The notes under the pieces were generated by a model. That model saw only the letters and a list, made by a program, of their open reading frames with translations. It did no database searches and was not told the DNA's origin. A DNA stretch of 64,000 nt. It comes from Flavobacterium sp. GTDB lineage: Bacteria; Bacteroidota; Bacteroidia; Flavobacteriales; Flavobacteriaceae. The position numbers were made by a program, and so were the translations under genes. The first letter of the stretch is position 1. Each line of letters begins with the position of its first letter. Positions 20,582-40,860 of this stretch are shown one piece after another. The stretch spans positions 78,249 to 142,248 of the forward strand of contig JADBYA010000023.1 of assembly GCA_020403245.1 (NCBI GenBank). Direction: 5' to 3'.

Positions 20582-20615
20582 TTAAAGAATATTAGTCTAT
20601 TTTTGTGGGCGATTC

Positions 20616-20728
20616 TAGCCCCGACCTGCCTGCCGGCAGGCAGGTAGTAGCGGTATCATTTTGTTTTGTCATGCTGAGCCTGTCGAAGAACAAAACAAAA
20701 GATACAGTGGACAGCGGGAATAGCTCCT
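20616..20728 (+). repeat. REP-like dispersed element, copy A (with nested palindrome and ATGCTGAGCCTGTCGAAG repeat)
   Basis: Ends TAGCCCCGA and GGACAGCGGGAATAGCTCCT shared with the copy at 40769-40822; long internal hairpin. Confidence 0.75.
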
Positions 20729-21993: not shown

Positions 21994-22992
21994 ATGAAAA
22001 CATTCTCAATACAGGAAATCAATGACGTACTTGGTGGTGAAATTGTTGGTTCTACTGCAACAAAAATTACAGCTCCGGAACAATTAGAAGCTGCAACTGA
22101 AACCGAAATTTCATTTATTGGAAGTAAAAAATATGAAAAGTTTTGGCAGAATTCTAAAGCCTGTGTTGCTGTAGTTAATCAAGATATTTCTATTGAACCC
22201 GGAGAAAATCGTGCTTTTATAAAAGTTAAAAATGCCGATTTGGCCATGTCTCAAGTACTGGAACTCTTTGCTCCTGCTCCACCCGTTTTTGATATTGACA
22301 TTCATCCAACTGCTATCATCGATACAACTGCTGTAATAGGCAAGGGAACTAAAATTGGCGCTGGAAGTTATATTGGACCTAATGTTTCTATTGGTGACAA
22401 TGTTACGATTTATCCCAATGTCACAATTTTAGATGAGTGCAGTATTGGGCAACATACCATTATATGGTCTGGAACAGTAATAAGGGAACGTTGTCTTATT
22501 GGTGCCTATTGCATATTACATCCCAATTGTACCATTGGTGCTGATGGTTTTGGATTTAGACCTTGTCCTGAAAGAGGCTTGGTTAAAATTCCACAAATCG
22601 GAAATGTAATTATTGGAAATAATGTTGAAATTGGTGCCAATTCTTGTGTTGATAGAGGGAAGTTTAGTTCTACGATACTTGGCGATGGCTGTAAAATTGA
22701 TAATTTAGTTCAAATTGGACACAATTCTAAGCTTGGGAAATTTTGTATTATGGCTGGAAACTCTGGTTTGGCAGGTTCAGTTACGTTAGGCAACGGAGTA
22801 ATTATTGGCGGTAGCGCCTCCATTAAAGATCATACTACTATTGGTGAAGGCGCAATTGTTGGCGCTGGTTCAGGTGTAGCTGCCGATGTTGAAGCTGGAA
22901 AAACAGTATTGGGTTATCCTGCTGTGGAGGCAAGAGATGCTTTAAAACAATGGGCCATTTTAAAAAGATTAGTTAGAGATTCAAATAAATAA
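21994..22992 (+). CDS. lpxD: UDP-3-O-acylglucosamine N-acyltransferase
   Basis: Left-handed beta-helix hexapeptides; GADGFGFRP, QIGHNSKLGKFCIMAGNSGLAGS. Confidence 0.95.
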   Translation: MKTFSIQEINDVLGGEIVGSTATKITAPEQLEAATETEISFIGSKKYEKFWQNSKACVAVVNQDISIEPGENRAFIKVKNADLAMSQVLELFAPAPPVFDIDIHPTAIIDTTAVIGKGTKIGAGSYIGPNVSIGDNVTIYPNVTILDECSIGQHTIIWSGTVIRERCLIGAYCILHPNCTIGADGFGFRPCPERGLVKIPQIGNVIIGNNVEIGANSCVDRGKFSSTILGDGCKIDNLVQIGHNSKLGKFCIMAGNSGLAGSVTLGNGVIIGGSASIKDHTTIGEGAIVGAGSGVAADVEAGKTVLGYPAVEARDALKQWAILKRLVRDSNK

Positions 22993-22993
22993 A

Positions 22994-23023
22994 TTTTCGT
23001 TTCAAATAAAAGCTATATATTTG
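22994..23023 (+). promoter_or_regulatory. Putative promoter of the small RNA candidate (-7 box TATATTTG at 23016-23023, weak -33)
   Basis: Match to TAnnTTTG; upstream TTTTCG is only a weak -33. Confidence 0.5.
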
Positions 23024-23027
23024 CATC

Positions 23028-23088
23028 GAGGATTCCGAAAGGAAGTTACACCTCACCGCACTAGTCGATCGCTCCAGATCGACTTTTG
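23028..23088 (+). ncRNA. Candidate ~60-nt structured small RNA
   Basis: GAGG-A-UUCC-GAAA-GGAA-GUUACA-CCUC hairpin with GNRA tetraloop, then perfect 8-bp terminator stem AGUCGAUC/GAUCGACU with UUUU. Confidence 0.6.
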
Positions 23089-23105
23089 TATTTTATATAG
23101 AAAGC

Positions 23106-23142
23106 AAAAGCCCAAAATAGTTGACTGTTTTGGGCTTTTTTA
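23106..23142. terminator. Rho-independent terminator (also serves the minus-strand gene)
   Basis: AAAAGCCCAAAA...TTTTGGGCTTTTTT. Confidence 0.8.
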
Positions 23143-23158
23143 ATAGATATAAAATGGA

Positions 23159-23923
23159 TTATAAAACTTCTTTTAAGAAATCTAATAAGGCTATCCAAGA
23201 ACGTTTATCTGCTTTTTCGTTATAAGCTGCACCTTTTGAATTATCGTCTCCAGCATCTTTATGTGTAAATGCATGAACAGAATTAGAATAATAAACCATT
23301 TGCCAATCGGCACCCGATGATGTCATTTCGTTTTGAAAACTATCCACTTCGTCCTTTGAAACATAAGGATCATCAGCACCGTGCAACACTAATACTTTAG
23401 GATTTATTTTATCATTTGGTCTGGTTATATCTTTGCCTAAACCTCCATGAAAAGAAACAACTCCCTGCACTTTCAATTTAGCTCTAGCAGCTTCAATAGC
23501 ACCAGTACCACCAAAACAATAACCCATGACAACAATCTTATCTGGGTTGGCTCCTAGCTTTACCAATTCGTTCAAAGCCAGTTGAATTCGTTTTTGGTAT
23601 TCGGCATAATTCTTTTTGTAATAGCCTGCTTTTGTTCCCGCTTCTGAGGGATTTTTAGGTCTGCTATCTTTTCCATAAATATCAGCAACAAAAGAGTAAT
23701 AGCCTAGTTCAGCAAGTTTTGTAGCACTTTCTTTAGAATGAGAATCAACACCTAACCAAGCTGGCAATATTAAAACACCTGGTTTGTCTTTCAATTCATT
23801 TTTTGGTTTGATACCAAAACCACTGAGTATTTGTTCGCCATCTTTATAATCTAAAGCTTTGAGCTGAGAAAATGCAGTACTTGACAGTAAGAGGAAAGTA
23901 AGGGTAAGAATAAAGTGTTTCAT
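23159..23923 (-). CDS. Dienelactone hydrolase family protein, secreted
   Basis: Signal peptide; VMGYCFGGTGAIEAAR nucleophile (Cys) elbow, HGADDPYVS, SVHAFTH. Confidence 0.9.
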   Translation of the reverse strand: MKHFILTLTFLLLSSTAFSQLKALDYKDGEQILSGFGIKPKNELKDKPGVLILPAWLGVDSHSKESATKLAELGYYSFVADIYGKDSRPKNPSEAGTKAGYYKKNYAEYQKRIQLALNELVKLGANPDKIVVMGYCFGGTGAIEAARAKLKVQGVVSFHGGLGKDITRPNDKINPKVLVLHGADDPYVSKDEVDSFQNEMTSSGADWQMVYYSNSVHAFTHKDAGDDNSKGAAYNEKADKRSWIALLDFLKEVL

Positions 23924-40768: not shown

Positions 40769-40822
40769 AGGAGCCATTTCCCGCTGTCCGCGCTACACGG
40801 TAGCTCGCTCCCATCGGGGCTA
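40769..40822 (-). repeat. REP-like dispersed element, copy B (short form)
   Basis: Reverse complement TAGCCCCGATGGGAGCGAGCTACCGTGTAGCGCGGACAGCGGGAAATGGCTCCT; ends match copy A at 20616-20728. Confidence 0.75.
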
Positions 40823-40860
40823 AAAACGTAAAGCTACTTATTAACATATATAAATACAAA

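Follow-up and report, generated by a model that had tools for sequence, protein, structure and literature searches.

A conserved, predicted two-hairpin small RNA of Flavobacterium with two invariant unpaired motifs

To our knowledge, few small RNAs have been described in Flavobacterium. Small RNAs that use a C-rich loop as the seed, for example RsaE, typically mask Shine-Dalgarno sequences. The mRNAs of Flavobacterium naturally lack Shine-Dalgarno sequences (PMC6847099). In our literature search, Rfp18 of F. psychrophilum was the one sRNA of the genus for which a deletion had been studied; it occurs in F. psychrophilum and F. columnare, is conserved in the genus, contains at least three stem-loops and has a stem-loop as its predicted pairing region (PMC9723704). 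In the transcriptome of F. psychrophilum, the sigma-A box, TAnnTTTG, is located at -12 to -5 of the mapped starts (PMC9723704).

The locus analyzed here is a spacer of 166 bp in a Flavobacterium genome, located within the window (the whole analyzed stretch of 64,000 nucleotides) between the second lpxD-like gene (21994-22992) and a convergent gene of the dienelactone-hydrolase family (23159-23923, minus strand). An earlier note, made from the sequence alone, had proposed that this spacer, described as lying between lpxD and a convergent dienelactone-hydrolase gene, holds a structured RNA that stands alone, with a promoter and a terminator of its own. Both neighbors were assigned to the right families, the upstream gene being an LpxD-family acyltransferase, but the plain name lpxD is less safe. 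The gene is one of two LpxD-like paralogues; copies of it with 73-87% identity are present in about two thirds of 30 genomes, and the other, more distant paralogue (about 35% identical) is present in all 30 genomes tested, which makes 'second lpxD-like gene' the safer name. The predicted RNA, of ~60-61 nt, is encoded on the plus strand at 23028-23087, and the parts of the locus are the following (evidence in brackets).

23016..23023, plus strand: -7 promoter box TATATTTG, TAnnTTTG type (sequence; fixed-distance box in relatives)
23028..23087, plus strand: predicted RNA, ~60-61 nt, with the inferred start at 23028 and the end in the T-run (covariance models R1, R2 and R3; fold)
23028..23031, plus strand: 5' strand of P1, GAGG, pairing with CCTC at 23051-23054 (compensatory GC/AU changes)
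23032..23032, plus strand: single A opposite the bulge, missing in some members (alignment)
23033..23044, plus strand: P2, TTCC (23033-23036) with GGAA (23041-23044), and the GAAA (GNRA) tetraloop at 23037-23040 (covariation, 4 of 4 pairs)
23045..23050, plus strand: bulge GTTACA, with GUUAC invariant and then A, or G in 2 of 51 (51 distinct sequences)
23051..23054, plus strand: 3' strand of P1, CCTC (covariation)
23055..23063, plus strand: single-stranded linker ACCGCACTA, partly conserved, its last base able to pair with 23084 (sequence, alignment)
23064..23083, plus strand: P3 terminator hairpin, GTCGATC (23064-23070), GCTCCA, GATCGAC (23077-23083) (covariation; terminator scan)
23071..23076, plus strand: invariant hexaloop GCTCCA of P3 (alignment)
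23084..23087, plus strand: TTTT, the T-run of the intrinsic terminator (TTTT in 51 of 51 distinct sequences)
23106..23142, no strand assigned: second, bidirectional terminator of the neighboring genes, outside the RNA (sequence, fold)

The 5' hairpin consists of 4+4 bp with a GNRA tetraloop and an A facing the GUUACA bulge, and the 3' hairpin consists of a 7 bp stem (with an optional eighth pair, A 23063 with T 23084) and the loop GCUCCA, followed by U4. Folding of the region 23016-23092 yields exactly these two hairpins at -21.9 kcal/mol (z -3.4), a value matched by 1 of 200 shuffles, and a terminator scan recovered P3. The hairpin, the -7 box and the terminator are located where the earlier note had placed them, except that the spacing between the two hairpins, given there as 4 nt, is in reality a linker of 8-9 nt. 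The elevated GC content was noted correctly, with 0.508 in the RNA versus 0.248 in the remaining spacer and 34% in the window, and so was the separate second terminator at 23106-23142, which could act in both directions and shows no conservation alongside the RNA.

A search of the window against Rfam 15 (4227 families) found no match at the gathering scores, and when six diverse members of the family described below were compared with Rfam together with their flanks, only a separate Flavo-1 passed the gathering score. Permissive thresholds produced only chance matches to Rfam, mostly to the second terminator, and there was no Rfam match for SRP RNA. Membership in Flavo-1 (RF01705, gathering score 42 bits), which had been suggested for this locus, has to be rejected because the region 22994-23150 shows no match to this model at E up to 10, although the model works in the genus: a real Flavo-1 is located 2.3 kb from the new RNA in one of the relatives. 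The other option that had been raised, a new motif class, agrees with the lack of a matching Rfam 15 family, and the RNA appears to represent a previously unlisted, new small RNA family. In the genome under study, Flavo-1 is dispersed, with 25 copies over the gathering score and 38 matches altogether; the matches within the window, at 20613-20725 (plus strand) and 40773-40825 (minus strand), are both below the cut-off. Flavo-1 behaves more like a repeat family than like a single sRNA gene.

A DNA search of 60 relatives identified six clear homologues, all from the same genus, which align as two sub-types: the stems differ between them, and the promoter box, GAAA, GUUACAC and the loop GCUCCA are common to both. 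The covariance model built from five type-1 sequences (R1) recovers the type-2 sequences and many more; conversely, the model built from type 2 and a third variant, without any type-1 member (R2), recovers the type-1 sequences at 53-70 bits, with the next match at 33 bits. R2 detects the RNA in 70 of the 400 sampled Flavobacterium genomes, always as a single copy, although in one genome it appears on two contigs. Among 400 genomes of the family (237 genera), only four weak matches were found outside Flavobacterium, all of which proved on reading to be plain terminators. The order and phylum samples contained no convincing match outside the genus, with two weak matches (32-34 bits) in other families of the phylum; the weak matches of R2 and R3 in other genera are those at 32-36 bits.

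A pattern scan of a species-level genome collection returned 93 stretches, 91 of which are true members according to the covariance model. The named carriers among these matches include Flavobacterium aquatile, cucumis, saliperosum, cauense, enshiense, gelidilacus, suncheonense, limnosediminis, sasangense, cheniae and others; further matches come from uncultured Flavobacteriaceae and from MAGs with foreign names. F. psychrophilum, F. columnare and F. johnsoniae are absent from the 93 matches of this exact-pattern scan. Two 'Bacillota' matches are chance occurrences in coding sequence. MAG contigs labeled Bifidobacterium breve (CALPIE020000093) and Candidatus Nitrotoga (CALQCV020000099) also carry the RNA; given the Flavobacterium gene neighbors around it, these contigs probably are mis-binned. 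A BLAST search against phages and plasmids and a pattern scan of IMG/VR gave no match, so we see no link of the RNA to phages or plasmids. As far as sampled, the RNA family is confined to part of Flavobacterium. Two weak matches of 30-32 bits (L089:3010-3062, minus strand, and L088:2991-3057, plus strand) resemble decayed copies of the RNA. One decayed-looking copy is located 1.4 kb from the intact copy in genome G063, and the other lies directly after a prfB-like end in genome G028, where the intact copy is on another contig. These observations hint that the RNA gene might move or duplicate, and then decay.

The structure is maintained by covariation in both hairpins. In the alignment of 51 distinct sequences, 99.9% of the pair cells are paired, with standard pairs, and changes on both sides are present at 11 of the 16 pairs; these cells represent sequences rather than independent events, and the counts therefore do not equal a number of independent compensations. 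All five covariation measures exceed every one of 500 shuffles (0/500), and in the control with the partner slid by 1-3 columns, pairing falls to 24-45%. A second set, of 64 distinct sequences, led to the same outcome, and RNAalifold applied to the alignment alone gives the same structure. In type 1, P1 has 4 bp; type 2 has 5 bp there, and the extra pair, found in half of the members, covaries too. Both-side changes occur in all four pairs of P2 and in five of the seven pairs of P3, where 99.7% of the cells are paired and one pair occurs in five forms (AU, GU, UA, CG and GC). Because the P3 stem is gapless in every sequence around the fixed loop, its covariation is independent of the structural alignment. 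The stems vary, and the invariant bases are mostly unpaired, namely G, A and A of the tetraloop, GUUAC and GCUCCA. In the 64-sequence set, which was picked by a pattern containing GTTACAC and GCTCCA, this invariance is partly by construction; the 51-sequence set came from the covariance models and is free of that constraint. The earlier note had named a lack of conservation outside this locus and a lack of compensatory changes as grounds for giving up the RNA; both homologues and compensatory changes were found. The observation exceeds chance by a wide margin and, considering that the two-hairpin shape is kept by paired mutations in ~70 Flavobacterium genomes, we conclude that the RNA is real and under selection. 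The locus almost certainly encodes a conserved structured transcript unit, as judged by comparative sequence analysis.

Upstream of the first paired base, TAnnTTTG is present at -12 to -5 (+-1) in 97 of the 98 distinct contexts, 11-13 bases before that base and exactly 12 in 77 contexts, at a background rate of 0.00076 per position. The covariance models start after the promoter box, which is therefore outside the models. By analogy with the position of the box relative to the mapped starts (PMC9723704), the predicted transcription start is 23028, the first base of P1. The relatives commonly show A-rich tracts at about 42 and 52 bases upstream; these tracts, which are not claimed for the window, would fit a strong promoter.

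Type 1 is usually found after prfB or the lpxD-like gene, facing the dienelactone-hydrolase gene, and type 2 usually stands divergent to a gene of the aminotransferase family and is followed by rdgB or unrelated genes. In 73 of the 98 scorable contexts, the strand of the next gene is opposite to that of the RNA; this gene comes from many families. Duplex energies between the loop and the start regions of the neighboring genes were no better than those for shuffled sequence. Since the neighbors vary and the next gene mostly points toward the RNA, a role in cis is unlikely; one RNA per genome, at differing positions and with differing neighbors, is what makes a trans-acting RNA gene, rather than a leader, likely. 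A stand-alone sRNA is expected to have its own promoter and its own intrinsic terminator, and not to lead into a fixed downstream gene. Here, the predicted box stands at a fixed distance, the predicted P3 hairpin with its TTTT is found by the terminator scan, and the downstream family varies, which, together with the covariation, supports the stand-alone RNA with promoter and terminator that was originally proposed. With high probability, then, the RNA would act in trans.

Several other explanations have to be weighed against this one. A leader in cis, with the 5' hairpin sensing a ligand or a protein and the 3' hairpin attenuating the gene that follows (rdgB in type 2, for instance), would account for the part of the type-2 loci that have a co-directional Ham1/RdgB-family gene about 45 nt downstream. 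It is improbable given the opposite orientation of the next gene in the window and in most scorable contexts and the change of the family of that gene while the RNA stays the same; furthermore, an invariant terminator loop would be unusual for an expression platform. An ordinary terminator or a dispersed DNA repeat resembling an RNA gene is hardly credible: the spacer is convergent and holds a perfect terminator hairpin, and Flavobacterium genomes do contain dispersed repeats such as Flavo-1, but there is one copy per genome with a predicted promoter box of its own, and the covarying 5' hairpin would be superfluous to a terminator; for this hairpin the covariation refutes the explanation. Identity with Rfp18, or a diverged relationship to it, is suggested by the conservation in the genus and the predicted stem-loop pairing region of that sRNA (PMC9723704), and is very improbable considering its three or more stem-loops and the absence of F. 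psychrophilum and F. columnare from the 93 exact-pattern matches, the comparison with Rfp18 being one of descriptions.

The reading that we prefer, with a probability of roughly 0.5, is that of an independent ~61-nt sRNA that acts in trans, with the terminator loop as the pairing seed and the 5' hairpin as a protein handle. Transcription from the first paired base, 23028, to the T-run would produce a compact RNA whose 5' end is paired and in which the freely varying stems would present two single-stranded invariant motifs, GUUACA in the bulge and GCUCCA in the terminator loop. The retention of the shape and of two short unpaired motifs, with the stems free to change, suggests that GUUACA and GCUCCA are read by a partner, which could be RNAs or a protein. 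In the likeliest working model, GCUCCA would serve as the seed that pairs with target RNAs, and the 5' GNRA hairpin with the bulge would be the handle for a protein; an RRM-domain protein is a candidate, Hfq being absent. No match to Hfq was found in 18 of 18 genomes (control genomes were positive), and an RRM protein is encoded in 17 of 18, equally commonly with or without the RNA.

The seed role of the terminator loop, taken by itself, is tentative, with a chance somewhat under even. In 2.4 Mb of a carrier genome (G223), the loop complement UGGAGC occurs near starts 5 times versus 5.4 expected; individual candidate sites exist there, one of them 36 nt before a cobA-like start, with no enrichment and with many inside reading frames. 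The complement in 16S rRNA (GGUGGAGC) extends beyond 6 nt in type 2 only and was judged to be due to chance. For an antisense RNA, a seed of 6 nt between varying flanks is short, which counts against the seed model, and, as mRNAs of the genus are naturally without Shine-Dalgarno sequences (PMC6847099), the CUCC loop would have no general site to mask. Given this and the missing enrichment of UGGAGC, a protein partner is nearly as likely as the seed. In G223, rpsU (bS21), on the minus strand, has a strong Shine-Dalgarno sequence, GAGGAGGTG, the mRNAs of the genus being otherwise without one. A purely protein-binding RNA, in which one or two proteins, titrated or modulated by it, would recognize the GCUCCA loop and GUUACA together with the GNRA hairpin, and which has no pairing target, is conceivable at less than an even chance: both invariant elements are short, structure-presented and flank-independent, a pairing target was not evident in the G223 search, and an RRM protein is encoded; however, each motif occurs once, versus the repeated sites typical of titrating RNAs, and the presence of the RRM protein does not follow that of the RNA. 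A binding motif of RbpB that could be the source of GUUACA was not found in the literature searched. In a more specific and likewise doubtful form, the RNA might belong to an undescribed RNA-protein module of Flavobacterium, with the GNRA hairpin and the GUUACA bulge as a specific site for a protein of this lineage without Hfq (RRM candidate) and the GCUCCA loop as a second contact or seed; if true, this would be a distinct sRNA design, not a classical antisense sRNA.

Returning to the preferred trans-acting sRNA, a single-copy, two-hairpin, two-motif RNA with a clear species range offers a compact handle on trans-acting RNAs in Flavobacterium, where, given the absence of Hfq in every genome tested and of Shine-Dalgarno sequences in mRNAs (PMC6847099), the usual sRNA rules would not apply. 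The alignment and the covariance model are ready for submission to Rfam. Which bases to mutate follows directly from the invariant motifs.

Among the known systems, Flavo-1 (RF01705) resembles the new RNA in being non-coding, in its occurrence in Bacteroidota and in its similar length (76 positions), and differs in forming one long interrupted hairpin, UAGCCCCGAU...AGCGGGA, with dozens of dispersed copies per genome. The Rfp sRNAs (PMC9723704) are stand-alone Flavobacterium sRNAs, and the predicted pairing region of Rfp18 is a stem-loop; Rfp18 is set apart by its larger number of stem-loops and its other species range, that is, by description, not by sequence. RsaE-type sRNAs share a C-rich hairpin loop as a possible seed, to be compared with GCUCCA, but they typically mask Shine-Dalgarno sequences, which Flavobacterium mRNAs naturally lack (PMC6847099). 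FopS and GibS of Bacteroides (PMC11697453) are similar in that they are short, lie between genes, have a promoter of the sigma-AB type, end in a terminator hairpin and come from a phylum with RRM proteins such as RbpB; whereas the seed of FopS is a single-stranded 5' region and 14 paralogues exist (PMC11697453), the new RNA has a structured 5' end and a single copy.
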